From a virus: DNA of 41,476 nt. This document shows, piece after piece, positions 433-29,058 of this stretch. Under the pieces are notes generated by a model that was given only the letters and a program-made list of their open reading frames with translations, ran no database searches and was not told the origin of the DNA. The stretch is taken from IMG/VR virus record IMGVR_UViG_3300012988_000022, positions 1-41,476 of that record; one strand, given 5' to 3'. Within the stretch, counting starts at the first letter, position 1. Every line of letters starts with the position of its first letter. Made by a program: the position numbers and the translations under genes.

Positions 433-651
433 ATGGAAAAATTAAGATATTACGAGATTAAATCTCAACTTAACAAGGCTGGAATTGAATTCACGTCTAA
501 TGACCAAGAAAAGAGAATTATCAGACTCCTTATTGCAAGAAGTGATGATGATTTAGATTCTTTTTTGAGTACCCTATTTAATCCAATAGATAAATCTAAC
601 ATTGAAAAACTTGTTGATTTCTATCTTCAACCAGCAAAACCAAAATTGTGA
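433..651 (+). CDS. small hypothetical protein between terS and terL
   Basis: A 72-residue, mostly helical, charged protein with no family that I recognise. It starts one base after the terS stop and its TGA (649-651) overlaps the GTG start of terL, so it is part of the packaging operon and probably translated in series with it. Its A/T-rich codon use is lower in G+C than terL, which may mean a separate origin. A role in packaging is only suggested by position. Confidence 0.7.
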   Translation: MEKLRYYEIKSQLNKAGIEFTSNDQEKRIIRLLIARSDDDLDSFLSTLFNPIDKSNIEKLVDFYLQPAKPKL

Positions 652-2399
652 GCGCAGCGGAGCAATACGCCAGATGGGTTTTAGAGCCGGGAAATGAACA
701 TGAAACAGGCTACCTTATAAAGCTGGCGGCAGTACGGTTTGTAAACGACCTACAGCGGGACGACCTGTATTTTGACCAGGAAGATGCGGACAAGTTCACC
801 AAGTTCGCGGAGGAACATTGCTGTCTGTGGGAAGACAAGTGGAGGGGCAAGCCGGTAAAGATAATGCCGTGGATGCACTTCATTTTCGATCAGATTTACG
901 GATGGAAGGTGAAGGCTACTGGGCTAAGACGGATTAAGTCGGTTTACGTACAAATCAGCAAGAAGAACGCGAAAAGCACACTGGCGGGGATATTGGGACT
1001 GTTTCACTTGTATTCAGATAAGCGGGTAAATACTCCGAAAGTATTCGTAGGGGCCAATAACGAAGATCAGGCGAAAATCTGCGTGAACATTACCGGGAAG
1101 ATTATTGAACAATCTCCCGACCTGATGGACTACGTTGACGATGATACCGTTAGCCTTTTCAGGTACAAAGAGAACATAGTCAACATCGTTCACAACGAAC
1201 GGGACGGCTTTATTAAGGCACTTTCCAAAGAAGGTAGCGATAAGAAGAGCAAAACATCAGGAGGTAAGCATGGTCTCAACCCTTCTTTGGGCCTAATAGA
1301 TGAGTATGGTATGGCCACTACGGCCGACCTATTAGATACGCTTGAGTCCGCCCAAGCAGCACGCGAAGAGCCTTTAATGGTCACTATTACGACATCAGGT
1401 TTTAACCTGGACGGGCCTTGTTATCAGAAGCTCCGGAAAGGTGGAATTGAGATTTTAGAGGGCATTGTTGAGGATGATTCTTATTTGCCGTTCATCTTTG
1501 AAATGGACAAACCGCTAGGCGCGGACGGTAAACCGGAGGAAATAACCATAGATTGGTTGATTGCGAATGAAGATAAGTGGAGACAGAGCAATCCGAACCT
1601 GATAACATCGGTAAATATCGACTTCCTTCGGACCCGATTGAAGAAAGCCAAGCGGGAGGGCGGGACCACAGAGGTAGACGTTAAGACCCTGAATTTTAAT
1701 ATTTGGTGCGATAGTCCAGAGGTATGGATTCCGACAGATACATGGATGAAAAATAGCCACGGATTTAGTGAGGACATTTTGAAAAACGTTTACCAATGCT
1801 ATGCCGGAATAGAGATAATCAGCGGGCTAAGTTTGAATAGTTTGTGCCTTATGTTCCCAAATGCAAGCGGAGATATTCACGCTTTTAAGTGGATATTCTG
1901 GATGCCGGAAGAAAAAGTAAAAGTGAACGATATTAAATTCGACTTCTCCAATTTTGTTGACGAAGGATGGATAAAGACAACGCCCGGAAACGTAGTGGAT
2001 AATGATTTGATGTTCGATATTATTCATGAGGAACTACAAAAATACTACGTGCATTCAATGGCCTTTGACGCGAACATACAGAACAACGACATTCTACAGG
2101 CATTAGTAAAATCAGGACTGCAAGCAAATCCAATTTCCCAAAGCTACCGGGGACTTTCCGAACCTACAAAAGAATGGGAAGCATTGGCGACCAAATGCGA
2201 GATAGAACATTTTAACAATCCGGTTATCAAGTGGATGAATTCTAATTGCATGGTTTTGCGAAAGGGGAATGATGTAATGTTGGAAAAATTACAGGGTAGG
2301 ATTTCTGGAATACGGGCAGGGATACACGCGCTGGCTCAGTGGAAGACAATCGAAGCGCAGAAAATAACAGGGGACGAAATTATACAATCTTGGGGATGA
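648..2399 (+). CDS. terL: terminase large subunit (packaging ATPase/nuclease)
   Basis: A 583-residue packaging motor that pumps DNA into the prohead and cuts concatemers. The ATPase domain shows a Walker A-like SKKNAKST at 104-111 and a Walker B LGLIDEY at 214-220 (Asp218, Glu219). The C-terminal half has the layout of a RuvC-like nuclease, but the usual acidic residues look replaced: GIEIISGLSLNSL at 387-399 has Glu389 and Ser395 where Asp is common, and GRISGIRAG has Ser553 at the place of the late Asp. Asp474 (FDAN) remains. The GTG start at 648 overlaps the upstream stop. The stop overlaps the next gene as ATGA, indicating coupling. Confidence 0.95.
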   Translation: MSAAEQYARWVLEPGNEHETGYLIKLAAVRFVNDLQRDDLYFDQEDADKFTKFAEEHCCLWEDKWRGKPVKIMPWMHFIFDQIYGWKVKATGLRRIKSVYVQISKKNAKSTLAGILGLFHLYSDKRVNTPKVFVGANNEDQAKICVNITGKIIEQSPDLMDYVDDDTVSLFRYKENIVNIVHNERDGFIKALSKEGSDKKSKTSGGKHGLNPSLGLIDEYGMATTADLLDTLESAQAAREEPLMVTITTSGFNLDGPCYQKLRKGGIEILEGIVEDDSYLPFIFEMDKPLGADGKPEEITIDWLIANEDKWRQSNPNLITSVNIDFLRTRLKKAKREGGTTEVDVKTLNFNIWCDSPEVWIPTDTWMKNSHGFSEDILKNVYQCYAGIEIISGLSLNSLCLMFPNASGDIHAFKWIFWMPEEKVKVNDIKFDFSNFVDEGWIKTTPGNVVDNDLMFDIIHEELQKYYVHSMAFDANIQNNDILQALVKSGLQANPISQSYRGLSEPTKEWEALATKCEIEHFNNPVIKWMNSNCMVLRKGNDVMLEKLQGRISGIRAGIHALAQWKTIEAQKITGDEIIQSWG

Positions 2400-3127
2400 T
2401 TTGCGCGAATGATGATCTAGGAAGTCCATGCGTTGGGTGCAAATGTCACCTTAATCCGGTGGTTATTATCGCTACTCATAACAGATTAATAATCACAACC
2501 AAGAACATAGAGCTACTTCAACAGCAACGATGTAAAATAGTTTTAGTGGTCAGTTACAAAGAAGAGTTCAACTACTATTCAAACAGATTTCCAGAAATTG
2601 AAATAGTGAGAGCGCAAAACGATCCTTTGGGTGCCAAGTGGCAAGCGGGAGTAAATTGGGCGGTGACTATTGGTGCGAACCCTTTAATTATTGTTGGTAG
2701 TGATGACATTTTAGGGAAAGATTACATCAACAGAGCTTTGGATTTAATGGTCAAAGGTTACGATCTTATCGGAACTACTTCGTGGTATACATACGAAAGC
2801 GAAACGAATTCTTTGTATAAGATGAAGTACATAAACCAGAACGCACACTTTCCAATCGGATCAGGAAAGGTATTTTCTAAATCGTTACTTGAGAAGATAA
2901 ACAACCAGGTATTTGACGTAAAAGCGAACAGAAAATTGGACGACTTAGGTTATCACAATACCATGAAAGCAAAAGCACCAATTGTTTTGGATGATGATTT
3001 AAACGTGCTGGCAGTTAAAGGCCAATGGAATGAAATGAACAGCCTTAAAGATTATCTGAGATCACGAAATATAAAATCAGAACCAGCAGACACGGAAATA
3101 TTAAAAGAACTTTTCAACTATGAGTGA
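2396..3127 (+). CDS. glycosyltransferase-like protein (GT-A fold, family 2-like), copy 1
   Basis: A 243-residue protein with the N-terminal pattern of a nucleotide-sugar glycosyltransferase: a first beta strand VVIIATHNR at 22-30, NDPLGAKW at 75-82, and a hydrophobic strand ending in GSDD at 101-104, at the place of the metal-binding DxD. Start at 2396 is chosen because it makes an ATGA overlap with terL; an open frame reaches back to 2339. Cysteines at 3, 12, 15 and 17 could bind metal. It shares the N(D/E)PLGxK and GSDD signatures with the gene at 9765-10475, so the two are probably paralogues. It is followed by a methyltransferase and an amidotransferase gene. The sugar and the acceptor are unknown. 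Confidence 0.78.
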   Translation: MICANDDLGSPCVGCKCHLNPVVIIATHNRLIITTKNIELLQQQRCKIVLVVSYKEEFNYYSNRFPEIEIVRAQNDPLGAKWQAGVNWAVTIGANPLIIVGSDDILGKDYINRALDLMVKGYDLIGTTSWYTYESETNSLYKMKYINQNAHFPIGSGKVFSKSLLEKINNQVFDVKANRKLDDLGYHNTMKAKAPIVLDDDLNVLAVKGQWNEMNSLKDYLRSRNIKSEPADTEILKELFNYE

Positions 3128-3653
3128 AGCAAAGGAGTTTTATAAAACGTATGTGGCCGATGATAATTTATCTCCATTGAGTGAAGAGGTAATTTTCAGA
3201 ATCGAAGAACTTGAGCCAAAAAGCGTTTTGGAGTTTGGATGCGGGACAGGTAAGAATCTGAAACTAATTAACGATGATATTTTCAAAGCTGGCATAGATG
3301 TAAGCTGGCCGAATATGACGATAGCAAGTCAAAAAGGGTTATCAAATATCATTCTCGGAGATGAAGAAATGCTAAAGCACATTCAAAACTTTGACATTGT
3401 GTTTACCGTTTCTGTTTTAGATCATATCGAAGACGTGGCTGCAATAATCGAAGAGTTTAAACGCATCGCCAACAAAGCTGTATTCCTTGCAGAGACTACA
3501 GAAGTTCCAAGTAAGTTCTATTACTGGCATGACTTCGAGTCCATGGGATTTAAAAAAGAGGATGACTTTATGGTTAATGTTCCTTGGCGTTGGAAGTCAG
3601 AAGGCGAAACCGGAGATGGTTGCGAATACTTTATTTGGTCATGGTATAAATAA
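3120..3653 (+). CDS. class I SAM-dependent methyltransferase (type 11-like)
   Basis: A 177-residue methyltransferase. The SAM-binding motif I is VLEFGCGTG at 36-44, the acidic end of strand 2 is Asp60 (GIDVS), and FDIVFTVSVLDHIED near 95-109 matches the motif IV region of small-molecule methyltransferases. There is no DPPY/NPPY motif, so a base methylase is unlikely; sugars or small molecules fit better. The start overlaps the glycosyltransferase stop by 8 bases and the amidotransferase follows 6 bases later, so the three are one transcriptional unit. The substrate is unknown. Confidence 0.85.
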   Translation: MSEAKEFYKTYVADDNLSPLSEEVIFRIEELEPKSVLEFGCGTGKNLKLINDDIFKAGIDVSWPNMTIASQKGLSNIILGDEEMLKHIQNFDIVFTVSVLDHIEDVAAIIEEFKRIANKAVFLAETTEVPSKFYYWHDFESMGFKKEDDFMVNVPWRWKSEGETGDGCEYFIWSWYK

Positions 3654-3659
3654 AAATCT

Positions 3660-5225
3660 ATGTGCAGGATTTCAGGGACGGTTAATTATACAAAAGAAAT
3701 GATTGAAAAAATGGTTAACCACCAAAAGCGTGGAGGGCCTGACTATTCCAATATTCAGGAAGTGTCAAGCAATATATTTTTTGGTCATAATCTTTTATCG
3801 ATAATTGGAGATCAGGTTCAGCCGTTAAATGGAGGGGACGCTTTAACGTATAATGGCGAATGGTATAATTACAAGGATTTCTATCCGTATGAAGAAAGTG
3901 ATACAATGGCTTTGTGGTTGTCAATTCATAAACACGATCAAAAGCCAAGGAATGGGAACTCATTTAGGGATGCTATAAATGATATTAATGGAATGTTCTC
4001 CATTGGCTACTTTGATTGTGAGAGAAAAAAAATTTACTTAGCAGTTGACAGGTTTAGTCAAAAGTCGATTTACTACTACCAGGAAGGCGACAAATTTGCT
4101 TTTGCTTCATCCCCTGGCGCGCTACTTCACCTGAAACCAAAATGGGAGATTGATAAAGACATGATGCAATCCTATTGGCTTTTGGGTTCCTGCATGGGCT
4201 CCATGTGGAAGGGAATTAAGAAGCTGGGAGCCGCTGAAATGCTAACCTATGACGTTTCACGTGGAACCATTGAAATAGAACGCTACTGGGAACCAAAATT
4301 CCAAGAAAACACGTCAGGAATAGAAGATTTGGTACTGGATGCCATCAATAAGGTTAAAATTTCAGACGTTCCGATTCATATTTTCCTGTCTGGCGGCATA
4401 GATTCTACTTTGGTTGCTTCTCAATTCGCTTGCGGATCCGCCATACACTTGGACAGCCCTGAGCGGAAATATGCCCAGCAAGTGGCCGACAAGTTCGGGA
4501 TAGACATGAAAGTGGTTGACCCGGAAGAAATAAAAGTAGCTGAATATCTGACGGATTACTCTTTGGAGTGCGGAGAGCCGACAATGGCTGGTCTTATTCC
4601 ATACATGACCTCAAAAGAAACTTCTAAATTCGGGCGGGTGGCGATTACCGCTAACGGAGCGGATGAATTGTTTTTCGGGTATGACAGGACACATGAATTA
4701 AATGGAAAGCCTCAGATGGATCATACTTATCGATCAATAGAAAGGCCTAAAAATTGGAAATGGCCTTTTCCTATGTCATTCCAATATAGCGAAGAGCCGA
4801 AAGGAAGGTTGGTTGAATTGGAGGGGTACGTACAATACGACCTAAACAAAACCTTAGATTTCGCATCCATGTGTCACGGTTTGGAAGTTCGGTCGCCTTT
4901 CCTGGATCATCGATTAGTAGAAATGGCCCTTTCGATAAATGAAAAAGAACATCGAGTAGCTGGGAATAAAAGCATTTTAAAGGACATGCTACGAAAGATG
5001 GGATTCAGTGAGCAGTTTTTGAATAGGCCAAAATTAGGATTTTCACTACATAAACAGCCGGATAACATTGATAAACTAATTTCTATGACTTGGAAATGGG
5101 TAAAGTCAGAAGGCTTTCTGCAATGTGATGATTCTAAACTTTCAGGAAGGGATAAGAAGTATTTAGAGATGAGCGCGTTGGGATTCTACTATTGGTATGC
5201 TTGTCATTCTAATAAAATTTTGTAG
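3660..5225 (+). CDS. asparagine synthase-like glutamine amidotransferase
   Basis: A 521-residue two-domain protein. The N-terminal glutaminase domain starts Met-Cys, so Cys2 can be the exposed nucleophile after Met removal. RGGPD at 24-28 and YNGEWYN at 64-70 match class II glutaminase motifs. The C-terminal synthetase domain has the ATP-pyrophosphatase signature SGGIDS at 244-249, NGADELFFGY at 332-341 and SPFLDHR at 412-418. All key parts are present, so the enzyme looks active: it should release ammonia from glutamine and form an amide on an AMP-activated carboxylate. True asparagine synthesis is possible, but relatives in polysaccharide loci amidate uronic acids, which suits its glycosyltransferase and methyltransferase neighbours. 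A terminator follows at 5272. Confidence 0.9.
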   Translation: MCRISGTVNYTKEMIEKMVNHQKRGGPDYSNIQEVSSNIFFGHNLLSIIGDQVQPLNGGDALTYNGEWYNYKDFYPYEESDTMALWLSIHKHDQKPRNGNSFRDAINDINGMFSIGYFDCERKKIYLAVDRFSQKSIYYYQEGDKFAFASSPGALLHLKPKWEIDKDMMQSYWLLGSCMGSMWKGIKKLGAAEMLTYDVSRGTIEIERYWEPKFQENTSGIEDLVLDAINKVKISDVPIHIFLSGGIDSTLVASQFACGSAIHLDSPERKYAQQVADKFGIDMKVVDPEEIKVAEYLTDYSLECGEPTMAGLIPYMTSKETSKFGRVAITANGADELFFGYDRTHELNGKPQMDHTYRSIERPKNWKWPFPMSFQYSEEPKGRLVELEGYVQYDLNKTLDFASMCHGLEVRSPFLDHRLVEMALSINEKEHRVAGNKSILKDMLRKMGFSEQFLNRPKLGFSLHKQPDNIDKLISMTWKWVKSEGFLQCDDSKLSGRDKKYLEMSALGFYYWYACHSNKIL

Positions 5226-5271
5226 ATTCGTTTACTGGTTTAATTTTGGTGAGTAGGTCAGATTTGTGGGG

Positions 5272-5299
5272 AAAAGGCTGTCATTTGGCAGCCTTTTTT
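5272..5299. terminator. bidirectional intrinsic terminator
   Basis: AAAAGGCTG (5272-5280), an 8-base loop, then CAGCCTTTT (5289-5297) form a 9-bp hairpin followed by a T-run to 5299. The A-run on the left makes it work on the other strand as well. It closes the packaging and amidotransferase operon, and it contains the last codons of the leftward gene at 5281-5466. Confidence 0.88.
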
Positions 5300-5466
5300 C
5301 GTTGCTTTCTGAGGGCATTGAAACTATCCCAACTTGAATAAGGCGTAAACTTTAGATCCGATTCGATCTTATCGGTGGCCCGCTGAAAGGCATCTTGCAT
5401 TGTCTTTGATGATGGTAATTCGCTTTTAAATCTCTCTTCGAAAAAGTCGTATAGCCTTCTTCCCAT
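5281..5466 (-). CDS. small leftward hypothetical protein
   Basis: A 61-residue basic protein, the only leftward gene in the left part of the window. It looks truly coding: balanced composition, aromatic and charged residues in amphipathic spacing, and a C-terminal KQRKKAAK tail. Nothing is coded on the opposite strand here. Its stop lies inside the hairpin of the shared terminator. A possible -7 element TCACTTTG lies 18 bases upstream of its start (5483-5490, minus strand). I do not recognise a family; an early regulatory or host-directed role is possible because it opposes the late genes. Confidence 0.65.
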   Translation of the reverse strand: MGRRLYDFFEERFKSELPSSKTMQDAFQRATDKIESDLKFTPYSSWDSFNALRKQRKKAAK

Positions 5467-5547
5467 ATTAAGACGATAGTGTCAAAGTGAAAAAAATTAC
5501 CCTTTCGGTACTATAAATTTAGTGAATATTGTCCCATTCACGCAAAC
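5467..5547. promoter_or_regulatory. divergent intergenic region, possible promoters
   Basis: This 81-base spacer separates the leftward gene from the portal gene. On the + strand TAAATTTA (5514-5521) differs by one base from the Bacteroidota -7 consensus TAnnTTTG. On the - strand TCACTTTG (5490-5483) also differs by one. Neither has a convincing TTTG about 19 bases upstream. Because a terminator precedes, the head genes need a promoter near here, so these are candidates only. Confidence 0.35.
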
Positions 5548-6852
5548 ATGGGGGCAATTTTTCAAAACTTCGTTGAAAAATACATTTGGGAAACACCCAA
5601 AAAATCAGCCTACGGCCCCGGTGAAGGTTATACATACGACCTTAAAGGCAGCATCACAGCAGATAAGATTTTCGGAAGCCTTGATAATTTCAGCAATGAG
5701 AGAGTCACTGAGCAGCGCGCATTAGGACTATCAGCGGTTTGGACTTGTATCAATGTTAGGTCCAGAACAATAGCCAGTCTTCCGATAAACATTTACCAGG
5801 AGGATGAGAATGAGCAAAAGATAAGCCTCGAAGATCACCCAGCTTATTACCCTCTTGCTCATCAGCCGAACAGCTACATGAGTTCGGCCAATATGTTCCT
5901 GACCTCAATGGTGCATTCTGATGCATGGGGCAATTCAGTTATCGGCATCAACAGGGACGGCAACAACCGCCCGCGATCATTCGATTTGATTTGTCCTGGT
6001 GAATGGGATGTAACCAAGAGCGGTGGCCGCGCATGGTACAGGATCAACGGTGAAATGTACTCTTCTGATGACGTTTTGCACTTCCGTTGGTTTTCACTTG
6101 ACGGGCTTTGCGGTCTATCTCCGATCAGGCAAAATGCCATTACAATGGGCGCGGCATTCAAGCAATCCCGATATTCCACGATGGCAATGGGTGAGCGTCC
6201 GCCTGGGTTCCTTTCGTATGAGGGGCAACAAAACCCGACCCAGAGGGCGGAAAACCAAAAATCTTGGCAGGAGGACCGGCTAAACGGTAAGGTCCCGATT
6301 CTTACCGGGAACTGGAAATATAATTCCGTTCTTATTCCGCCAGGGGATGCCGAATACTTAGGCACCGCAGGATTGACCGAACAGCAAATTTACGGTATTT
6401 ATCAACTTCCTCCATCCTTCGCGCAAAACTACCAGCGCATGACGTGGAGCAATTCAGAACAGTCTGACTTGGTTTATGCAAAACACACTATTGCGCCAAT
6501 CTGTAGAGTAATCGAACAGGAGTGCAACATGAAGCTATTCACCGAGAAGGAGAAGAAAAATACTTTTGTAAAGTTCAACATGAACGGACTTTTAAGGGGT
6601 GATTTAAAGGCGCGCGCAGAGTATTACACAGCTATGCGAAACATCGGAGCAATGAACGGGGATGAGATCAGGGATCGTGAAGATATGAACAGTTATGAAG
6701 GTGGCGACATCTATACAATAAATGCAGCTACTATCCCGGTAGATCAATTAAGAGAGTTTTATTCTACAAAGGTTGATCCGGGCACAGATCCAAATCAGCC
6801 AACTAAAAAGAATGGTCACAAAGTAAACGGATTTCAACATGAGCTCAACTAA
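5548..6852 (+). CDS. portal protein (HK97 family)
   Basis: A 434-residue portal protein that forms the dodecameric ring at one capsid vertex, where DNA enters and leaves and where the terminase and connector dock. The family pattern is clear: an N-terminal segment with SAVWTCINVRSRTIASLP near 64-81, HPAYYPLAHQPN near 98-109, and a central DDVLHFRW followed by GLSPIRQNA. The C-terminal end is Asn/Pro/Lys-rich. It begins the head module (portal, protease, capsid in standard order) and overlaps the protease gene by 14 bases. An overlapping frame starting at 5522 is a shadow. Confidence 0.94.
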   Translation: MGAIFQNFVEKYIWETPKKSAYGPGEGYTYDLKGSITADKIFGSLDNFSNERVTEQRALGLSAVWTCINVRSRTIASLPINIYQEDENEQKISLEDHPAYYPLAHQPNSYMSSANMFLTSMVHSDAWGNSVIGINRDGNNRPRSFDLICPGEWDVTKSGGRAWYRINGEMYSSDDVLHFRWFSLDGLCGLSPIRQNAITMGAAFKQSRYSTMAMGERPPGFLSYEGQQNPTQRAENQKSWQEDRLNGKVPILTGNWKYNSVLIPPGDAEYLGTAGLTEQQIYGIYQLPPSFAQNYQRMTWSNSEQSDLVYAKHTIAPICRVIEQECNMKLFTEKEKKNTFVKFNMNGLLRGDLKARAEYYTAMRNIGAMNGDEIRDREDMNSYEGGDIYTINAATIPVDQLREFYSTKVDPGTDPNQPTKKNGHKVNGFQHELN

Positions 6853-7564
6853 ATACAATCAGTCAATATTTAAAGCGCAGTTCGATGAAAAGACAGTTCG
6901 TGAAACACGAAAGGTTTCTTTCATCATTGCAGCAGAGAAGACAGGACGTGATCACAGAAACAAGTTTGTTTATAATTGGAGCAATTGGGACCTAACGAAG
7001 TTTAACTCAAACCCAATTGTAGGTTATCAGCATAATGTATATGGGGACAATATGTGTCTTGCCCCAAACCCTGACGATGTTATTGCGAAAGCAACCGCAG
7101 GAATAGACACTTTCGATGGCTATAAAGTTTTGGTAAGCGAAGCCACTTTTGAGCCAGCAGAAATAAACCCAACTGCCGAAAAGGTACTTTCAAAAATCAT
7201 TTTTGGCTCCTTAAATGCCTCAAGTGTTGGAGTTATGCCTATAGGCAACATCAAAAAAGAGACCTTTAAAAATGACATGGGTAAGGATGACTATACCCTG
7301 AATTTTGAAGGTCAGGAATTGTTAGAATGGAGTGTTGTACAGATTCCAGCCGATCCGGCAGCGTTAAGGCGATCGATTAAGAATCACGCACATTCAGCAT
7401 TGTCATTTCTACAGCGGTTCACTCCTCAATTAAGCTATGCAGAGATGCAGTCCATGAAAGTATCTGATCTTATCGCGTTGCTTGAAGGAAAGGACTATGA
7501 ACAAAAGGGACCAGATCCCGAATTAAATTCAATGAAGGAGTATTTAAAATCAATCAAAAAATGA
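6839..7564 (+). CDS. prohead maturation protease (HK97 / S78 family)
   Basis: A 241-residue serine protease that processes the capsid precursor and itself inside the prohead. His65 in GYQHNV and Ser128 or Ser129 in LNASSVGV stand where the catalytic His and Ser of the family are found. It sits between portal and capsid, as usual. The start overlaps the portal stop by 14 bases, and the stop overlaps the capsid start as ATGA. Length is normal for the family. The C-terminal 50 residues are polar and probably act as a scaffold-like tail. Confidence 0.9.
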   Translation: MSSTKYNQSIFKAQFDEKTVRETRKVSFIIAAEKTGRDHRNKFVYNWSNWDLTKFNSNPIVGYQHNVYGDNMCLAPNPDDVIAKATAGIDTFDGYKVLVSEATFEPAEINPTAEKVLSKIIFGSLNASSVGVMPIGNIKKETFKNDMGKDDYTLNFEGQELLEWSVVQIPADPAALRRSIKNHAHSALSFLQRFTPQLSYAEMQSMKVSDLIALLEGKDYEQKGPDPELNSMKEYLKSIKK

Positions 7565-8916
7565 AAAACCTAAAAGAACTCAAAGAAAGTCGGGCGGAGA
7601 TACAAACAAAAGTTGAAGCCCTTATCGCGGTCGGTGAAAAAAGCGAACTGACGGCAGAGCAAAAAACAGATTGGAAAAACTTTCAATCTCAAATCGAAGC
7701 AATCGATGCTGACATTGTAATTGCTGAACAGATGGAAGCGGAAGCGAAAAAGATTGCAGCACGCAAGATTGCAAGCGGTGCAAGTGCGTTGCCTGGTCCT
7801 ACTCAAGACGGTGATTCTGAATATAAAGAATTGCTATCTTTATCCAAGAAGTTCTCAATTGGACGTGCGTTGAAAATGGTTTCTTCTCGTAAGGAATTCA
7901 ACGGAGCAGAAGAAGAAGTATTCCAGATTGCAAAAGCGGAAGCCAAAGAGCAGGATATTAGCCTGTCTGGAAACATGCATATTCCTCATTCATTTATTAA
8001 AATGGGGCGTAGATCTGCGTTGACTGTAGGAACAGAAGGGGCGGATGTTGTATTTACTGAATATGGAGGTAAGATCATTCCATATTTAAATCCTATGCCG
8101 GTTGCTGATCAACTTGGCGTGACATTTCTTAATGGATTGAATGGTAACGTACAATGGCCACGATCCACAAACCGTCTTACTCTTGGTTTTGAAACCGAAA
8201 CTTCGGACGTTGATGAAACAACCCCAACTTTTGATAATATCTCAATCTCACCAAAGCGTTTCGGTGGTTATGTTGATTATACTTTGCAAATGCAAAAGCA
8301 AAGCGTTTTCAATGTAGATGAGTACATCAAAAGACAATTGACCATTGCTCACGAATATCTAATCGATGATCAATTGTTCAATGGTTCTGGTTCAGCAAAC
8401 CAAACTACTGGTATTCTTGCATTCTCCGGTGTAAATAACCTATCATTAGGTACATCTGGCGGTGACATGACTTACGCAGCGGCTTTGTCTATGATTAGAG
8501 ATACTGAGATTGCAAATGCAAGAGATGGAAAACGTGGTTTCGTAACCAATGCAAGGGGTAAATTCGCGTTAGCAGTTACGCCTAAGCAAGTATCTGGCGT
8601 TGAGGGTAATTTTATATTCAATGTAAAAGATAAGAGCTTGTTAGCTGAGCCATTCTACCTTTCAAATGTAATTCCATCAAACCTGACAGATACAAGCGGA
8701 GGAACAAACCTTTCTGCTATGATTTTCTCATCTAACTGGGCAGGATGGATTGTAGGATTCTGGGGTGGACTTGATTTGACTTTTGATCCATTCACTCAGA
8801 AGCTTGGAGGTAAAAACAGGATCGTTGTTAACGGATTTATGGACCAGGATTGCGAACAGCCAGCAGAGTTTTCAATCTCTAAAGACTGGAACACAACTAC
8901 ACCAGCATTGACATAA
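7561..8916 (+). CDS. major capsid protein (HK97 fold)
   Basis: A 451-residue protein of the HK97 capsid family. Residues 1 to about 80 are a charged, Lys/Glu/Ala-rich coiled coil, the delta domain that serves as internal scaffold and is cut away by the protease just upstream. The remainder carries the shell domain with the family-like stretch VQWPRSTN and a C-terminal segment in which FDPFTQKLGGKNRIVVNG matches the usual end of the fold. Start and order (portal, protease, capsid) are standard. No separate scaffold gene is needed. Confidence 0.94.
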   Translation: MKNLKELKESRAEIQTKVEALIAVGEKSELTAEQKTDWKNFQSQIEAIDADIVIAEQMEAEAKKIAARKIASGASALPGPTQDGDSEYKELLSLSKKFSIGRALKMVSSRKEFNGAEEEVFQIAKAEAKEQDISLSGNMHIPHSFIKMGRRSALTVGTEGADVVFTEYGGKIIPYLNPMPVADQLGVTFLNGLNGNVQWPRSTNRLTLGFETETSDVDETTPTFDNISISPKRFGGYVDYTLQMQKQSVFNVDEYIKRQLTIAHEYLIDDQLFNGSGSANQTTGILAFSGVNNLSLGTSGGDMTYAAALSMIRDTEIANARDGKRGFVTNARGKFALAVTPKQVSGVEGNFIFNVKDKSLLAEPFYLSNVIPSNLTDTSGGTNLSAMIFSSNWAGWIVGFWGGLDLTFDPFTQKLGGKNRIVVNGFMDQDCEQPAEFSISKDWNTTTPALT

Positions 8917-8929
8917 TTTTTATAAAACC

Positions 8930-9139
8930 ATGAAAGTAATACCAAATAGAAGTTTCCTTGTTCGTCAGGATGACGTGGAAGGTGGCGGCAAAAAAGATGT
9001 GTTCGCAAAAGCGGGACAAAAGATGGAAATGTCCGAAAGAGAGGCTGTAAAATTTTGGGGATCACTTAATTTAAGTGATTCAGAAAAAAAGACTCTCAAT
9101 ATTGTTGCTCGGAAAAACGGATACACAAGATTGTGCTAA
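8930..9139 (+). CDS. small protein after the capsid gene
   Basis: A 69-residue basic protein of unknown family, 13 bases after the capsid stop and 3 bases before the connector gene. It has a Gly-rich segment near residue 20 (VEGGGKKDVF) and a helical C-terminal half. Its place is often taken by head decoration or minor head proteins, but no motif shows that role here. Confidence 0.72.
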   Translation: MKVIPNRSFLVRQDDVEGGGKKDVFAKAGQKMEMSEREAVKFWGSLNLSDSEKKTLNIVARKNGYTRLC

Positions 9140-9142
9140 AAT

Positions 9143-9781
9143 ATGATAACGTACAGTAAGGTAATTGAACTTTCCGACAGTGAACCGGTAACTTTAGAAG
9201 AGGCTAAATCTCATCTTGAGGTGCAAGGAACGTCAAAGGACGATTACATTACTGTACTAATCAAAGTAGCACGTAAGGCATGCGAGAACTATGCGGGATT
9301 GAGTTTCATTACCCAAACCCGCAGAGTTACTTTAGATCATTTCCCTGGATGTGGGCACTGGCAGACATCGGCAAAAGAAATAATTCTACCATACGGACCG
9401 GTTCAAAGCATTGAATCATTTACGTATGCGGCAAGTGATAAAACGGAACAAACTATAAACGAAGGAGATGACGGTTATCTTTTAGATGATCATTCTGGAC
9501 TTGCGCGAGTTGTACCGATGTCAGGCGGTGAGATTGGTAGCTGGCCTTCAACGGCAGTAAGGCCCAATGCAGTGGTAATTGATTATGTATGTGGTTACGA
9601 TTCTGTAAGTGGCGATACGGATTTTCCAACTGAAGCAATACAGGCAATTTTATTGCAGGTAGGAACGATGTTTGAGAATAGACAGGATGAAGTAATAGGA
9701 ACAACAGTGACGGAGTTAAATACGAATTCGCGGGCATTGCTTGACAATATTAAAGTTTATTGGAATGCAAACCAGTACTAA
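9143..9781 (+). CDS. head-tail connector protein (HK97 gp6 / phiE125 gp8-like)
   Basis: A 212-residue adaptor that docks under the portal. It begins with the family pattern SEPVTLEEAKSHLEV (near 12-26), followed by a helical DDYITVLIKVARKACENY and a C-terminal helix in which PTEAIQAILLQVGTMFENR matches connector proteins. The middle domain is beta-rich and contains the GP-V-SI segment typical of phiE125 gp8 relatives. Head genes lie upstream, and head closure follows after the inserted glycosyltransferase. Confidence 0.85.
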   Translation: MITYSKVIELSDSEPVTLEEAKSHLEVQGTSKDDYITVLIKVARKACENYAGLSFITQTRRVTLDHFPGCGHWQTSAKEIILPYGPVQSIESFTYAASDKTEQTINEGDDGYLLDDHSGLARVVPMSGGEIGSWPSTAVRPNAVVIDYVCGYDSVSGDTDFPTEAIQAILLQVGTMFENRQDEVIGTTVTELNTNSRALLDNIKVYWNANQY

Positions 9782-10475
9782 ACTTTTGATCTTCTTAGCT
9801 GTGTGGAAACGTCCATACATTACTGAGATTTGTTTTAACGGGATCAAAAGATTGAAAGAGCATCCAGACTACGATGTTCAGGCATTGGCAGTTATTAGCG
9901 AAGAGGAAATGATTCCGCTTTGTGAGCAGTACGGAATTAATTGGGTGATGTATAAAAACGAACCACTCGGAGAAAAGAAAAACTACGGACTGCAAAAGGC
10001 AAAAGAATTTGATTTTGATTATTTGTTGGAGATAGGTAGTGATGACTTAATAACAAACGAGTTACTAACATACTACAAAGGATTTTTGGATTACGGTTTC
10101 TTTGGTGTTAAAGATGTAGCATACATTGATAGCGCAGACGGATCTTGCAGAAGATTGCAAAGTAAGTCAACATATGGAGCCGGCAGGATGATCAGCCGCC
10201 AGAATTTAGAGAAATTAAACTTTAAAAGCTGGAAAGATCAAATAAACAAAGGCATGGACAATAACAGCGTGTTTGCGTTTATGCGAAATGGGATTGATTA
10301 CAAACAGGTACCCTCAATGGAAGTTCCTGGTGTGATCGACATTAAAAGCGAAGTAAACATTTGGCCGTTCAATCACTTAACAGGGATTGAATACGACAAA
10401 GAAAAGATATTTGAAAAACTGTCAGAAGTAGAGGTAAACATGATTGAAGAATGCTACAGTCTAAAGAGCAAATAG
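9765..10475 (+). CDS. glycosyltransferase-like protein, copy 2, inserted among connector genes
   Basis: A 236-residue protein related to the product of 2396-3127. It has a first strand LLIFLAVWKRP (7-17), NEPLGEKKNYG at 65-75 and the strand-end GSDD at 91-94, which corresponds to NDPLGAKW and GSDD in the other copy. The start at 9765 overlaps the connector gene by 17 bases, and the stop overlaps the head-closure gene by 25 bases, so it is embedded in the structural operon and should be expressed late with the virion proteins. That timing hints at a virion or late surface target. The sugar and the acceptor are unknown. Confidence 0.78.
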   Translation: MQTSTKLLIFLAVWKRPYITEICFNGIKRLKEHPDYDVQALAVISEEEMIPLCEQYGINWVMYKNEPLGEKKNYGLQKAKEFDFDYLLEIGSDDLITNELLTYYKGFLDYGFFGVKDVAYIDSADGSCRRLQSKSTYGAGRMISRQNLEKLNFKSWKDQINKGMDNNSVFAFMRNGIDYKQVPSMEVPGVIDIKSEVNIWPFNHLTGIEYDKEKIFEKLSEVEVNMIEECYSLKSK

Positions 10476-10822
10476 GGCGTTTTGATCGTGAAATTACTTT
10501 CATACAGAGTATAGAAGTAGACGGAATAAGTAACGAGGATAAAAAAATAGGATGGGAAGAAATAGAAAACTATCCAACAGTTTCGGCAAAGAAAAGGAAC
10601 CTAAAAGGTAATGAGGTTCCAATAGCTGACAGATTGAACGCAATTTATCCAGTTGTTTTTACCATTCGCTACAGGGATGACTTGAATGAAAAAATGAGGG
10701 TGGTTTGTGATGGGAAAGTTTATGAGATCACAGCCCCGATAGAAGAACCGGAAGATGGGAGACGTAGATTTTTGAATGTGTACGCGAATTATTTGGATAA
10801 TGAACCTAATCCGATAACATGA
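10451..10822 (+). CDS. head closure / head-tail adaptor (SPP1 gp16-like)
   Basis: A 123-residue beta-rich adaptor that seals the head after packaging. The pattern GRFDREITFIQS near 9-20, followed by a WEE segment, then YPVVFTIRYRDDLNEKMRVV and a short YEITAPIEE, fits the SPP1 gp16 / phage head-tail adaptor family. It starts within the end of the glycosyltransferase gene and ends in an ATGA-type overlap with the next tail gene. Confidence 0.85.
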   Translation: MLQSKEQIGRFDREITFIQSIEVDGISNEDKKIGWEEIENYPTVSAKKRNLKGNEVPIADRLNAIYPVVFTIRYRDDLNEKMRVVCDGKVYEITAPIEEPEDGRRRFLNVYANYLDNEPNPIT

Positions 10823-11289
10823 TTCAGGTAAAAGGCATAAAGGAAATTAACGATGTGTTTAGAGGTTGGACAAACGAACTACAACACAAAACACTTCAAG
10901 CGGTCCACGCTGAGGCGGCTGTTCCTTTGGTTAATATGGCTCATTTGCTTGCACCGGTAGGCAAGACAGGAAATTTAGCAGACTCAATAGGCGTTGAAAA
11001 ACCAAGCGTAGCAAAGGCAAACATGGTCGGAGAGGTTACGGTAGGCCCGCGCAGGAGTTCAAGATATAAAGGTTTTGCGGCCCATTTGGTTGAATACGGA
11101 ACCAGACAGCGCAAGACCAGAAGTGGAGCTAATCGCGGATCAATGCCACGTCATCCATTTATGAAGCCGGCTTTTGATGCGACCAATGGCCAGTTATTTA
11201 ATAAGATCGATGAGATATTGGGTCGTAAAATGGTGGCGGTGATGAAACGGAATTTAAAAGCAAATGGCGGGACATGGTTGAAAGTGTAA
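10819..11289 (+). CDS. tail completion / head-tail joining protein (HK97 gp10 family)
   Basis: A 156-residue protein matching the HK97 gp10 family: an N-terminal helix, then APVGKTGNLADSI near 47-59, VGPRRSSRYKGFAAHLVEYG in the middle, and MPRHPFMKPAFD near 110-121. The family helps join tail to head at the neck. Order is as expected between head closure and the tail terminator. It overlaps the next gene by 16 bases. Confidence 0.92.
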   Translation: MIQVKGIKEINDVFRGWTNELQHKTLQAVHAEAAVPLVNMAHLLAPVGKTGNLADSIGVEKPSVAKANMVGEVTVGPRRSSRYKGFAAHLVEYGTRQRKTRSGANRGSMPRHPFMKPAFDATNGQLFNKIDEILGRKMVAVMKRNLKANGGTWLKV

Positions 11290-11675
11290 TTGACATATTG
11301 AAAGCGAATAATGATCTGGTTCAGCTTGTTGGCATGAATGAAGCAGGAGGCAAGGCTAAAATTTATCCTGTCATTGCACCACAAAAAGAGAAAGCTCCTT
11401 ACATAACAGTGCGGCAGACCGGTAAAGTAAGGCAGGGAAAGAGTTGTAGTTACCAGGGAAGTTTCGCGGTATTCGCTTATCACGAGAACTATGATGACTG
11501 TAAGGCGATTGATTTAGCGGTAGTGGCGGCACTGGAAGCAGTTAAGGCAAACGTAGGAGTAGCATTTGTGAATCTCACAGGAACGTCAGACGATTATGTT
11601 TTTCAGGGAGAGGGGAACGGATTGTATAGCAGGATTTCACAATTTGATTGTACTTACGATGAGGGTGGAACTTAA
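11274..11675 (+). CDS. tail terminator-like protein (DUF3168 / gp17-like)
   Basis: A 133-residue protein of the DUF3168 pattern: an N-terminal helix ending in a loop, then KIYPVIAPQKEKAPYITVRQ around 29-48 (typical Y-P-ITV), and a C-terminal YSRISQFDCTY strand. This family caps the tail tube at the head-proximal end. The position before the major tail protein agrees. Confidence 0.85.
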   Translation: MVESVIDILKANNDLVQLVGMNEAGGKAKIYPVIAPQKEKAPYITVRQTGKVRQGKSCSYQGSFAVFAYHENYDDCKAIDLAVVAALEAVKANVGVAFVNLTGTSDDYVFQGEGNGLYSRISQFDCTYDEGGT

Positions 11676-11844
11676 AAAAAGTTGGACAAATACTTTCGGA
11701 AAAAAGTATCCAGTAGGAACCATCTTACAAGTAGGCAAGGAACTTAGAAAAGAATTGAAAGAGCGGGGATTTGCGGATGATTATTCAGGCAAGTATCCGC
11801 CAGAAGGAAAGAAAAAAATAGAATTAGCAAACCTTAAATATTAA
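11659..11844 (+). CDS. small basic protein before the major tail protein
   Basis: A 61-residue Lys-rich protein. The start at 11659 (MRVELKKSW) overlaps the upstream gene by 17 bases; an open frame reaches 11596, but that longer form would overlap the previous gene much further. It has no recognised domain. It is cotranscribed with tail genes, four bases before the major tail protein. Confidence 0.65.
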   Translation: MRVELKKSWTNTFGKKYPVGTILQVGKELRKELKERGFADDYSGKYPPEGKKKIELANLKY

Positions 11845-11848
11845 TAAA

Positions 11849-12241
11849 ATGGCTGTTGTAAATGGAAATAACGTTGGCCTCTATGTTGAAAATCAACTGA
11901 TCGGGTGCCTTACTACGAATAGTTTCAATTCTCAGAATGATGAGATTGACGTAACGTGCAAAGATGATAATGGAGCCCGCAAAGTTTTGGCTGGCGGCAA
12001 TCAATCATCTTTCCCCTTTGCTGGGTTGTTTAATCCGGCTTCAACTTATGGATTTCAAGATTTAATCGTGATTCATAAGAACAAAACAAGGGTATGGGTA
12101 AAAATGCTTGTTGATGATGAGTTGGCGATCACTTGCTTTGCTTATCTGAATACATTGGCATGGGAAGGCCCATTGAATGCCGGCAGCACGTTCTCAGGAA
12201 CGTTTACCGTAGATGGTGAGTGGTCATATAGCACAACTTAA
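11849..12241 (+). CDS. major tail protein (TP901-1 family)
   Basis: A 130-residue tube protein of the TP901-1 major tail family: N-terminal NGNNVGLYVENQLIGCLTT, then EIDVTCKDDNGARKVLAGG near 31-49, and a C-terminal GTFTVDGEW strand. It polymerises around the tape measure to form the tail tube. It lies directly before the tail chaperone gene, the normal order. It is one of the shorter family members. Confidence 0.92.
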   Translation: MAVVNGNNVGLYVENQLIGCLTTNSFNSQNDEIDVTCKDDNGARKVLAGGNQSSFPFAGLFNPASTYGFQDLIVIHKNKTRVWVKMLVDDELAITCFAYLNTLAWEGPLNAGSTFSGTFTVDGEWSYSTT

Positions 12242-19665: not shown

Positions 19666-19965
19666 ATGGAAGAGCAAAGAAAAGAAAACAGCTTGATTCA
19701 CATTGATAACGTGAACATAAAGCGAAACCCGGTAACCTCAATTATCGGAGGTATTTTCCTATTAATCACTGCGTTAATGTACGTAGTTAAATACATCATA
19801 CCCGCTTTTGTGGTATTAAAGCAGGACATCCCGTACGAGTGGTATATACCTTTGGTTCCGCTATTGATCGGGATAGTATTGATTTTTATCAATGACGATT
19901 ATTTTTCACGGATCTTTAATCGCGTTGATAAGGTAGCAGCAAAAAAAACAGATACACCGCAATGA
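19666..19965 (+). CDS. membrane protein with two transmembrane helices
   Basis: A 99-residue protein with a polar N-terminus, two hydrophobic helices (about 25-47 and 62-80) joined by a short loop, and a Lys-rich tail. The start at 19666 (MEEQRKEN) lies just after the upstream stop; an open frame reaches 19615. The size and two-helix hairpin fit a holin, but the lysis genes are 4 kb away, so membrane anchoring of another process is equally possible. The stop overlaps the fibre gene start as ATGA. Confidence 0.72.
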   Translation: MEEQRKENSLIHIDNVNIKRNPVTSIIGGIFLLITALMYVVKYIIPAFVVLKQDIPYEWYIPLVPLLIGIVLIFINDDYFSRIFNRVDKVAAKKTDTPQ

Positions 19966-22871
19966 GAAAATTAATCCTAATACCGTTTTTACTTTTATCG
20001 CTTTGGTCTTTCGGGCAGACGAGTTTGGCTACCTATAGCCTACCATCAGCCACAGGAACAGATACCTATTCGTATAGTCCGACTACTGCAATGACTCTAA
20101 CTAACGGGGCAACTTTGCGATTAAAATTCACCAACGCCAACACAACTACAGCAACGCTAAACATTAGCAGCACTGGTGCAGTTGCTTTGACAAAAGCAGA
20201 CGGCACAGCTTTAAGCTCAGGAGATATTACGGCTGGTTCTGTTTGGTGGGTTATTTACGATTCAGCGGCTAATAAATGGAAACTATCAGGCGGTAGTGGT
20301 GGTGGTGGTGGAACTGTAAGTAGCATTGCGACCACCTCACCAATTACCGGTGGAACGATTACAACCACAGGAACCATAGGTATAAATAATGCGGCAGCGG
20401 ATGGATCGACAAAGGGAGCGGCTAGCTTTACGGCAAATGATTTTGATGCATCCAGTGGAAATATTTCGATTGATTATACGAATGGTCAGGAATCAAGCGG
20501 AAGCAATAAAGGATTTTTGACATCTACAGATTGGACAACATTCAACAATAAACAATCAGCTATAACTTTTGGAACAGGCGTACAAACTGCATTGGGTGTA
20601 AATATTGGGACGGCTGGATCTTTTATCGTTAACGGTGGGGCATTAGGTACGCCTTCAAGTGGAGTGGCTACAAACTTAACCGGCACTGCATCAGGTCTTA
20701 CTGCCGGAACAGTAACAACAAATGCGAATTTAACAGGCGCAATTACTTCATCGGGAAACGCTACTTCATTAGGTTCGTTTACTTCATCTAATTTGAGAGG
20801 TGCCTTAACTGATGAACTTGGAACAGGAGCAACATTATTTGATGGTGCTACCCCTACTTCGTTAATCGGAACAAACATAACTGGCATTCCAATAAGTACA
20901 GGATTAACAGGAGGTAGCACGAACAGGATTCCTTATTTTACAAGCTCCACGGCTTTATCTGTTTCAGGTGCTCCAATTTTTGACGGAACAAATTTAGGTA
21001 TTGGAGTAACCCCTCAATCCCTATTAACTGTTTCAAGGCAGTCAAGTATTCAATCCCCAGTGAGCGGATCAACTGAACATATTATCGGACTAGATGCAAA
21101 CCCTTTACGAATAACTTTCGACACACATAACAACGCAAGCGCAAGCGGTACGGCTTTCATGGTTAGAAGATCACGCGGTACATCCGCATCTCCATCTGCT
21201 TTATCTTCCGGAGATGTTATTGCGGCATTTAGTGGAAGGGGGTATGGGACGACTCAATATGCAGCAGCCTCAACCGGATTGATAAACATCAAAGCGAATC
21301 AAACCTTCACAGATGCTAATAACGGAACCTATATATCATTTGACGCAACGCCTGACAATAGCGTAACAGCGGCAGAAGTTTTCCGTTTTGGTGGATCTGG
21401 GCAACTTGGAATAGGTGGTGCAAATTTTGGTTCATCAGGCAATACTATTTTATCTGGCGGTAGTGGTGCGGCTGTTTCTTGGGGACAATATGCGCAATCA
21501 AATCTAAGTGGCCTTGGTACAGGTGTTTCTACATGGTTAGGCACTCCATCTTGGACCAATTTTAATTCGGCTATAACCGGAACAGCTCCGTATTGGAGCC
21601 TTGCTTCTGGCGGTACGCTTACTGGGAATCAAACAATAACTGGTCCAACGTTATCGGGCTTAACTGCGTCAACGGAATCAATAAGATTAAATTTTGATTT
21701 CAGCCAAACTAAAACCTTTAACACTGGCGCGATAACGACACAAAGAGAGGTTGTTTTTCAAAAGCCTACTTACTCGGTTGCCTCTACAATAACAAAAGCG
21801 GCCACGGTTGCGATTGCCGATTCGCCCGCTATTACTGGCGGTGGAACAATTACAAACCCTTACTCATTATGGGTACAAGCGGGGGCGACACAGTTAGACG
21901 GTAATTTAGCGGTAGTTGGAACGGCAAATATTACCGGCTCATTAAATGCAAGTTCAAATACCGCTATTCAAAACTACTATCGAATTGCGCCAACGTATAC
22001 GATGACGTCAAATAACTCCACTGCTTTTATTATGCAAGGAAGTCCAACTTTGAGAGCTTCTGCAAGCGATATTTATAGGGGGTTCCACCAAAATCAAACA
22101 ATAAGCGCTAATGCTGCAACGCAAACTATTTATGGATGGGTTGTGGATAATACCTATGGAGGCATGACAAATAGCCCATCCATAATAAATATTGCGTATT
22201 TATCTGGTTTATCGTCTAGCTCAGGTACTGCATCTTTTAAAAATTTGATACAACCAACTTACAATACATTAGGAAGCTATTCGGGTACTGGTATAGATTT
22301 AGATATTGACCCTGTACTAACATCAACAACGGGACTTACTCATTTGGCTTTGCGAGCCACATCAGGACAGGTGCTTTTAGGAGGCACCACAGTTACAACC
22401 AGCACTCGCGTAGATCAACGTGGGTTAGGTACTACTAACTCTACTATTAATCATCGTTGGGCTGATTCAGGTAATACTTTATTAGGAACAGTAACAGATG
22501 ACGGAACATTGAAGATAAATCATATAGGCGGTAACACATCTGCCCCATCTATTGCAGCAGGAGCAGGAGCCGGAACAGGACCAACAGTTGTAGTAACTAA
22601 CGCGACTGATATGAGTGGAATCGTTGACGTTACTACAGGAACAACACCAACCGGAACAAACTCTACAATAGCAACGATTACTTTTAATAAATCATTTGCT
22701 TCTGCGCCAAATATTCAGCTTACTCCTAACAACGCAAACGCAGCAGGACTTGCAGCGGCCCTTACGATGGTTTACGTCACAAGTACTACTACAACTTTTG
22801 TTGTCACAAGTGGAACTACTGCTTTAACAGCGTCAACTCAGTACAAATGGTTTTATTCCGTAATCCAATAA
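19962..22871 (+). CDS. tail fibre-like protein with an N-terminal signal peptide
   Basis: A 969-residue protein, very rich in Gly, Thr, Ser and Ala, made of low-complexity beta-structured repeats of the kind found in trimeric fibres (TGNQTITGPTLSG and similar), with a Gly run near 112-117. The first 19 residues are a textbook Sec signal peptide: MRKLILIPF, a Leu-rich core, and cleavage after SFGQ. That is unexpected for a virion protein assembled in the cytoplasm. It may instead be a secreted, fibre-like surface protein. It follows tail genes and precedes another signal-peptide protein whose leader is similar in DNA and protein. Confidence 0.82.
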   Translation: MRKLILIPFLLLSLWSFGQTSLATYSLPSATGTDTYSYSPTTAMTLTNGATLRLKFTNANTTTATLNISSTGAVALTKADGTALSSGDITAGSVWWVIYDSAANKWKLSGGSGGGGGTVSSIATTSPITGGTITTTGTIGINNAAADGSTKGAASFTANDFDASSGNISIDYTNGQESSGSNKGFLTSTDWTTFNNKQSAITFGTGVQTALGVNIGTAGSFIVNGGALGTPSSGVATNLTGTASGLTAGTVTTNANLTGAITSSGNATSLGSFTSSNLRGALTDELGTGATLFDGATPTSLIGTNITGIPISTGLTGGSTNRIPYFTSSTALSVSGAPIFDGTNLGIGVTPQSLLTVSRQSSIQSPVSGSTEHIIGLDANPLRITFDTHNNASASGTAFMVRRSRGTSASPSALSSGDVIAAFSGRGYGTTQYAAASTGLINIKANQTFTDANNGTYISFDATPDNSVTAAEVFRFGGSGQLGIGGANFGSSGNTILSGGSGAAVSWGQYAQSNLSGLGTGVSTWLGTPSWTNFNSAITGTAPYWSLASGGTLTGNQTITGPTLSGLTASTESIRLNFDFSQTKTFNTGAITTQREVVFQKPTYSVASTITKAATVAIADSPAITGGGTITNPYSLWVQAGATQLDGNLAVVGTANITGSLNASSNTAIQNYYRIAPTYTMTSNNSTAFIMQGSPTLRASASDIYRGFHQNQTISANAATQTIYGWVVDNTYGGMTNSPSIINIAYLSGLSSSSGTASFKNLIQPTYNTLGSYSGTGIDLDIDPVLTSTTGLTHLALRATSGQVLLGGTTVTTSTRVDQRGLGTTNSTINHRWADSGNTLLGTVTDDGTLKINHIGGNTSAPSIAAGAGAGTGPTVVVTNATDMSGIVDVTTGTTPTGTNSTIATITFNKSFASAPNIQLTPNNANAAGLAAALTMVYVTSTTTTFVVTSGTTALTASTQYKWFYSVIQ

Positions 22872-28479: not shown

Positions 28480-29058
28480 ATGGACAACCAGCAATTAAAA
28501 AAGACCGTACCGGAGCAGCCGGAACATTCAAAACTTCCAACACTGGCAGAACTATTTGACGATAGTATTGCAGTGGCTGGAAAGTCAGAGGGACTAAATG
28601 CAATCCTGGGAACGCCCCCACCTCAGAAATGGGTAAAAGAGCATCCTTACATTAAAGGGCATTTATACCTTCCTATTGACAAGGTAGAGCATTTGCTAAG
28701 AAAGATTTTTAAGGCCTACAGAATCGAAATTACAGGGCAAGGAACGGCTTTTAATGGTGTGTGGGTTACCGTTAGGGTTCACTATTTCAATCCAGCTACG
28801 GGGCAATTTGAGTACCATGACGGAATCGGGGCAGCGCAGTTGCAAACAGCTAAGGGAACCAGCCCGTCAGATTTGATAAACATCAATAACGGTGCGGTTT
28901 CTATGGCTTTCCCAATCGCTAAGAGCTTGGCAATAAAGGATGCCTGCGATATGTTAGGTAACATATTTGGCGCAAATCTAAACCGTAGAGATGTGATTTC
29001 ATTTGAACCAGATCAGAAGATTATCGACAAGTACGCAAACGCAATGAAAGATGAATGA
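28480..29058 (+). CDS. Rad52-like single-strand annealing protein
   Basis: A 192-residue recombinase of the Rad52/22-like phage group. The core has KVEHLLRKIFKAYRIEI, then VWVTVRVHYFNPATGQFEY and DGIGAAQLQTA, and ends with AFPIAKSLAIKDACDMLG followed by FGANLNR, the usual signature. It anneals complementary single strands and promotes recombination-dependent replication. The gene overlaps the following exonuclease gene by 8 bases, forming a Red-like pair. Confidence 0.85.
   Translation: MDNQQLKKTVPEQPEHSKLPTLAELFDDSIAVAGKSEGLNAILGTPPPQKWVKEHPYIKGHLYLPIDKVEHLLRKIFKAYRIEITGQGTAFNGVWVTVRVHYFNPATGQFEYHDGIGAAQLQTAKGTSPSDLININNGAVSMAFPIAKSLAIKDACDMLGNIFGANLNRRDVISFEPDQKIIDKYANAMKDE

Follow-up and report, generated by a model that had tools for sequence, protein, structure and literature searches.

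The 41,476-base virus contig referred to here as the window (positions 1 to 41,476 of the IMG/VR record IMGVR_UViG_3300012988_000022) encodes, between the large terminase gene terL and the portal gene, a glycosyltransferase (GT1), an S-adenosylmethionine (SAM)-dependent methyltransferase (MT), and an AsnB-like amidotransferase. Gene orders and alignments from related phage contigs showed this cassette to recur at one site, to be optional, to recombine among phage backbones, and to draw on interchangeable, predicted sugar-modifying enzymes. A role in sugar tailoring appears highly probable; the chances are about even for the fuller reading, in which a modular glycan-tailoring cassette is expressed together with the packaging and head genes and most likely decorates the virion. 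The features of the locus are as follows.

648-2399, plus strand: terL, large terminase, left flank (PF03354, 4e-22; PF20441, 5e-10; phrog_9, 3e-105)
2396-3127, plus strand: GT1, predicted soluble GT-A glycosyltransferase with a GSDD metal/nucleotide motif (AlphaFold2, Foldseek, invariant residues of a 12-row family)
3120-3653, plus strand: class I SAM methyltransferase (MT), optional cassette member (Methyltransf_11, PF08241, 4e-9)
3660-5225, plus strand: AsnB-like glutamine-dependent amidotransferase of the phage ANGADE clade (Asn_synthase, PF00733, 2e-36; GATase_7, PF13537, 5e-13)
5269-5300, plus strand: rho-independent terminator-like hairpin, 14 pairs, with a T-run
5281-5466, minus strand: conserved basic open reading frame (ORF) of ~61 amino acids (aa), right edge of the cassette site (profile matches in the terL-portal gaps of relatives)
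5548-6852, plus strand: portal protein, right flank (PF04860, 3e-75)
9765-10475, plus strand: GT2, second GT-A glycosyltransferase and GT1 paralogue, between the Ad1 and Hc1 genes (neighbors phrog_442 and phrog_25)

The terL-portal slot in related phages

Profiles of GT1, AsnB, and the portal protein were searched in IMG/VR, and the gene orders were compared by script. The terL and portal genes are both visible in 27 related contigs, which were found by similarity, so that the following counts are not population frequencies. Ten of these contigs, including the window, carry a GT1-AsnB cassette between terL and an ORF of ~60 aa; in 12 others, this ORF alone fills the terL-portal gap of 230 to 470 bp; and the remaining 5 have, in place of the AsnB cassette, a glycosyltransferase gene (GT1b), a 247-aa ORF, and a WbuX-type N-acetyl sugar amidotransferase (TIGR03573, E value of 2e-47; 150 to 162 bits in the two proteins tested, under the cut-off of 203). 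Three of the 12 “empty” contigs have GT1-AsnB upstream of terS. AsnB is paired with GT1 in all terL-linked AsnB cassettes, and this adjacency, recurring in 10 contigs down to ~37% identity, is more than chance. The MT is found in 4 of the 10 AsnB cassettes (those of the window, L009, L010, and L050) and is absent from L002, L003, L045, L026, L051, and L052. Additional slot members include an LpxD-C-terminal-like (LbH) acyltransferase (TIGR01853, E value of 6e-48) and a PIG-L/BshB-like deacetylase (PF02585, E value of 1e-15).

A preliminary description of the window, made from the sequence without database searches, had considered the position between terL and portal unusual for such enzymes. 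In this phage group it is not, being a recurrent, optional cassette site. The same description had treated the three enzymes as a trio, which could have been a random insertion absent from relatives. The set is not absent, and the presence of GT1-AsnB in 10 contigs speaks against a one-off insertion; GT1 and AsnB stand as the core of the cassette, and the optional MT means that there is no fixed trio.

All 27 relatives have the ~60-aa basic ORF (consensus ...YSSYDSFR..KKRKK) between terL and portal, convergent to terL, whether or not they bear a cassette. It is located on the minus strand in 24 of the 27 and on the plus strand in L010, L050, and L139; examples include window 5281-5466 (minus strand), L012 5475-5660, L009 7573-7752, and L134 2156-2359, and the L051 copy comes from the profile search only, not from the slot-table scan. 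The protein always found between GT1b and WbuX (243 to 250 aa; L011 3084-3827, L012 3578-4321, L013 3639-4370, L022 2940-3692, L137 3450-4193) is possibly a second glycosyltransferase; its L011 representative, the one tested, had no Pfam or NCBIfam match.

Exchange among phage backbones and distant relatives

The histories of the cassette and of the adjacent portal gene disagree. Compared to the window, L045 and L026 have AsnB proteins of 55 to 59% identity and portal proteins of just 26 to 27%, whereas in L052 the portal is 60% identical and AsnB 37%. In approximately unbiased (AU) tests, the portal split is incompatible with the AsnB alignment (P = 0.0016), as is the AsnB clade with the portal alignment (P = 4e-29).

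Farther afield, a PIG-L-LbH-GT1-AsnB set was found in 1 of 395 Bacteroidia genomes, on a contig (L223) with a terminase-like ORF that is unlike the window terL, has no Pfam match, and was identified by reading of its sequence alone. Beside this cassette, a 318-aa ORF (6917-7873, minus strand) has the look of a Stealth-type sugar-phosphate transferase; it has no Pfam match and is unconfirmed. The larger phage contig L053 combines an ANGADE-type AsnB with a UDP-sugar dehydrogenase (PF03721), NeuB (PF03102, 2e-57), and a CTP-transferase, as well as LbH, PIG-L, MT, a glycosyltransferase, and a 532-aa fusion protein with a GT1 domain. The dehydrogenase and NeuB make carboxylate-bearing sugars, which carry the group that AsnB-type enzymes amidate. 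The L053 region 2268-12203 contains an apparent nonulosonic acid pathway (NeuB, CTP-transferase), and a similar GT1 fusion with AsnB is seen in L054, L055, and L057. A tblastn search of cultured phages detected no relative of GT1 or GT2 and just generic AsnB matches of ~25%. Among the genome contigs, the GT1 profile had no matches, and the AsnB profile retrieved only ordinary bacterial AsnBs without ANGADE.

The AsnB-like amidotransferase

The window protein belongs to the class II glutamine amidotransferase/AsnB superfamily: Cys2 and the SGGxDS (SGGIDS-type) loop are invariant in 12 of 12 homologues, and the sequence thus keeps both the nucleophile of the glutaminase domain and the loop of the ATP-pyrophosphatase. 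The preliminary description had made its case depend on conserved catalytic residues; these held up for AsnB and, with its retained SDD motif, for GT1. The GEGSDE motif of asparagine synthetases, with the catalytic Glu348 in Escherichia coli AsnB, is replaced by ANGADE in the phage clade, with Asn at the equivalent of Glu348 in all 12 sequences. The window enzyme keeps the equivalents of Asn74 and Asp98; in place of the glutamine-site arginines Arg30 and Arg49, it has Gly and Leu. ANGADE was found in 35 phage-derived loci, 33 of them on viral contigs and the others being L222/L223, from a phage-like contig binned with a bacterial genome; no other bacterial AsnB locus that was retrieved had the motif.

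The best NCBIfam match is to the asparagine synthase family TIGR01536 (E value of 1.5e-60), at 205.7 bits below the curated cut-off of 267.1. The WbpS-type sugar amidotransferase family TIGR03108 yields 151.1 bits versus the curated 816.9. The closest solved structure by sequence is the hydroxyamidotransferase 7ylz, followed by E. coli AsnB. Given these comparisons, the phage clade is best read as putative amidotransferases for sugar carboxylates.

The glycosyltransferases GT1 and GT2

The match of GT1 to the Pfam family Glycos_transf_2 (17.3 bits, E value of 0.005) is under the 23.3-bit cut-off. The AlphaFold2 model, built from 31 aligned sequences (pLDDT of 94), has a clear GT-A fold, for which the best Foldseek match is the Leptospira protein 6p61 (E value of 3.5e-10, TM score of 0.80 by target); further GT-A matches include the fucosyltransferase WrtF, TarP, and ppGalNAc-T2. 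In BFVD, the best matches are proteins of uncultured Caudovirales, one of them labeled “Glyco_tranf_GTA_type.” The DXD-type motif is SDD at positions 102 to 104. By the fold of its model only, GT1 is a distant member of Glycos_transf_2 and is predicted to be a soluble GT-A glycosyltransferase.

The preliminary description had overlooked GT2, a paralogous glycosyltransferase encoded in the head-connector region, between the head-tail adaptor (Ad1) and head closure (Hc1) genes. Paralogy is evident from the L002 GT1 region, which is 26% identical to window GT2 (E value of 2e-9), and from window GT1, 28% identical to L002 GT2 (E value of 3e-8). GT2 has no Pfam family; its model (pLDDT of 95) likewise has the GT-A fold, matches 6p61 (E value of 4e-9), and retrieves the same GT-A proteins as GT1. 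No PHROGs family was found for either protein, so that a purely family-based annotation would overlook them. GT2 is kept in every relative with a portal identity of at least 55% in which the Ad1-Hc1 junction is visible, which indicates that GT2 is a core late gene and GT1-AsnB an accessory. Both glycosyltransferase genes are thus linked to structural genes, GT1 beside terL and GT2 between Ad1 and Hc1, and the linkage is conserved in relatives. None of GT1, MT, AsnB, and GT2 has a hydrophobic segment (maximum KD19 below 1.4).

Locus structure

The presence of three intact enzyme ORFs between terL and portal, as initially described, was confirmed, with both flanks borne out by Pfam and PHROG matches. 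The gene junctions proved exact (a 4-base ATGA overlap of terL and GT1, an 8-base overlap of GT1 and MT, and a 6-base gap between MT and AsnB), and the terminator after the unit is real, with a 14-pair stem at 5269-5300. Of the 9 hairpins in a 12-kb stretch, a number that shuffled sequences also give, this one is the strongest. It probably serves both strands, as it overlaps the 3′ end of the minus-strand ORF at 5281-5466. The base composition of the cassette is not foreign looking (GC content of 0.38 to 0.41, versus 0.40 for the genome). A Shine-Dalgarno-like motif is missing before most starts in the window, and the upstream stretches are mostly A/T rich. These features, with the GC content of 0.40, are compatible with a Bacteroidota host but no proof of one. 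Elsewhere in the window, an exonuclease VIII-type homologue (phrog_412) is encoded at 29051-29938.

Proposed function and alternative explanations

Late in infection, GT1 would transfer a sugar from a host nucleotide-sugar (in the large relatives, from the phage's own) to an acceptor. AsnB, or WbuX in other phages, would then amidate a carboxylate or acetamido group of this sugar, using nitrogen derived from glutamine or ammonia, and, where present, the MT, the LbH acyltransferase, and the PIG-L deacetylase could add an O-methyl group or swap the N-acyl group. The acceptor would most likely be a virion protein. Granted sugar tailoring, the virion is somewhat favored as the target because the cassette travels with packaging and head genes and GT2 is fixed in the head-connector operon, because the cassette encodes no flippase and nothing that is membrane bound or polyprenol linked, and because mycobacteriophages offer a precedent. 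The phage-made modified sugar of the preliminary description, amidated and in some phages methylated, finds good support in the conserved neighbors and in the replacement of AsnB by WbuX at the same site.

Several observations weigh against virion decoration by an amidated sugar. No uronic acid-making enzyme was found in the window, so the substrate of AsnB would need to come from the host. The replacement of the Arg30 and Arg49 equivalents suggests that glutamine may be poorly used or replaced by ammonia. The GT-A matches span enzymes acting on teichoic acid, polysaccharide, and protein, so that no particular acceptor follows from the fold. The C termini of the major capsid protein (MCP) are the same with or without a cassette in the slot and in no way point to an acceptor site that varies with the cassette.

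As possible sites of glycosylation, the MCP C termini are uninformative, since they are conserved whether or not the cassette is present. A 969-aa putative tail protein encoded at 19962-22871 has a weak H-type lectin-like C terminus (E value of 0.045) and is a possible sugar-binding partner.

Instead of the virion, the enzymes could remodel the host surface, altering the lipopolysaccharide, the capsule, or a surface-protein glycan and thereby hiding receptors from superinfecting phages or keeping the progeny from re-adsorbing to debris. AsnB-like WbpS, WbuX, LpxD-like, and PIG-L enzymes are classic tailors of surface polysaccharides (PMC7468200), GT1 structurally resembles polysaccharide and teichoic acid glycosyltransferases, and L223 retains the same cassette near an unrelated terminase-like ORF. 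However, the window cassette lacks a membrane glycosyltransferase, flippase, polymerase, or transmembrane segment, and the late expression expected from its position and coupling would leave little time to rebuild the envelope. A tyrosine integrase is missing from the window and was seen in just one of 13 related records, which may be incomplete; this near-absence argues against lysogenic serotype conversion as the usual lifestyle. Host-surface remodeling, though rather unlikely, is the main rival reading. Modification of a phage DNA base as a defense against restriction is much harder to sustain. Phage glycosyltransferases, methyltransferases, and amidotransferases are known from such pathways (Pyle 2024, cited in PMC12619734), and a DNA methyltransferase distinct from the cassette MT (phrog_954, E value of 2e-73; 32746-33363) is encoded in the window. 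Nevertheless, the PF00303 thymidylate synthase-type base hydroxymethylase is absent from the window and 12 related records (which may be incomplete; the control scored in 9 of 14 genomes), the cassette is located among head genes and not replication genes, and its PIG-L, LbH, and NeuB partners indicate amino sugars and acid sugars, all of which makes DNA hypermodification very improbable.

Equally improbable is an ordinary asparagine synthetase feeding amino acid pools, with the glycosyltransferase and MT as unrelated passengers. TIGR01536 is indeed the best family match, and “asparagine synthase” has been reported as an ammonia-assimilation auxiliary metabolic gene (AMG) in rumen and groundwater viromes (PMC10465536, PMC10980836); however, the score is below the cut-off, the catalytic Glu position is Asn in 12 of 12 sequences, and AsnB is tied to GT1 in the terL-linked cassettes, with WbuX taking its place elsewhere. 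Finally, the cassette might be kept mainly by homing, with little benefit to the phage, since HNH-type ORFs occur inside or beside the slots of L010, L013, and L050 and near the relocated cassettes of L047 and L049. The window slot has no HNH gene, and the GT1-AsnB order and active-site residues survive deep divergence. This conservation, along with the replacement of AsnB by another amidotransferase, points to selection on the chemistry and leaves the selfish passenger the slimmest of chances.

For a sugar-tailoring cassette directed at the virion, its variability suggests a selective pressure for change in the modified sugar, e.g., to avoid recognition or to tune adsorption. A broader generalization can be offered tentatively: a wide group of uncultured tailed phages might keep, behind terL, a slot dedicated to glycan cassettes, where recombination swaps sets of glycosyltransferase, amidotransferase, methyltransferase, acyltransferase, and deacetylase genes, resulting in phage-specific amidated (uronamide or amidine) virion sugars and, in effect, serotype variation of the particle.

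Searches of the open-access literature found no description of such a swappable, amidating cassette; judged on these papers, phage-encoded glycosylation is already known, and its swappable amidating version is apparently undescribed. If the proposed function is correct, virion glycans would be no mycobacteriophage oddity but a trait that environmental phages have diversified and exchange among themselves, and amidation and N-acyl swapping would be chemistry unreported for phage particles in the open-access papers examined. Some of the “asparagine synthase” genes described in viromes as ammonia-assimilating AMGs may encode sugar amidotransferases, for which the ANGADE motif and a neighboring glycosyltransferase gene provide a simple test. 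The cassette-free relatives represent natural controls.

Comparison with known systems

The cassette differs from serotype conversion (gtr) cassettes in that the membrane proteins GtrA, GtrB, and GtrC are not found and its products have no hydrophobic segment. It shares with asparagine synthetase B (TIGR01536) the two-domain architecture, the catalytic Cys2, and the SGGxDS loop, and departs from it in the subthreshold score, the Glu348-to-Asn replacement in 12 of 12 sequences, the loss of both arginine equivalents in the window, and the fixed glycosyltransferase linkage. The WbuX/WbpG/PseA-type (TIGR03573) enzyme, found in the place of AsnB in 5 relatives that have a glycosyltransferase beside terL, comes from another family and has no glutaminase domain, and no HisH/HisF-like partner was seen in the slot.

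The mycobacteriophages Che8, Corndog, and Myrna glycosylate their capsid and tail-tube proteins with their own glycosyltransferases (Freeman 2023, as cited in PMC12363180 and PMC12619734). The phages described here similarly encode glycosyltransferases, in this case linked to structural genes. Unlike those mycobacteriophages, they have a predicted multienzyme tailoring set (amidotransferase, MT, acyltransferase, and deacetylase) that swaps in one slot, and their host group appears Bacteroidota-like, not actinobacterial.

The Wbp/Vim linking-sugar pathway of Porphyromonas gingivalis, in which the AsnB-like WbpS makes a uronamide on secreted-protein glycans together with the deacetylase VimE, the acyl/amino-acyl transferase VimA, and glycosyltransferases (PMC7468200), differs from the phage system in several details. 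The phage AsnB is under the TIGR03108 cut-off and has ANGADE instead of GDGGDE, the small phages lack the WbpA/B/D/E synthesis enzymes, the deacetylase is of the PIG-L and not the CE4 family, and the acyltransferase is of the LbH type. The two systems, like the WbpS/WbqG O-antigen enzymes, have in common an AsnB-like amidotransferase, a deacetylase, an acyl group transferase, and glycosyltransferases, which in the Wbp/Vim pathway all act on one amino-uronic sugar that is protein linked and made in a member of the Bacteroidota.

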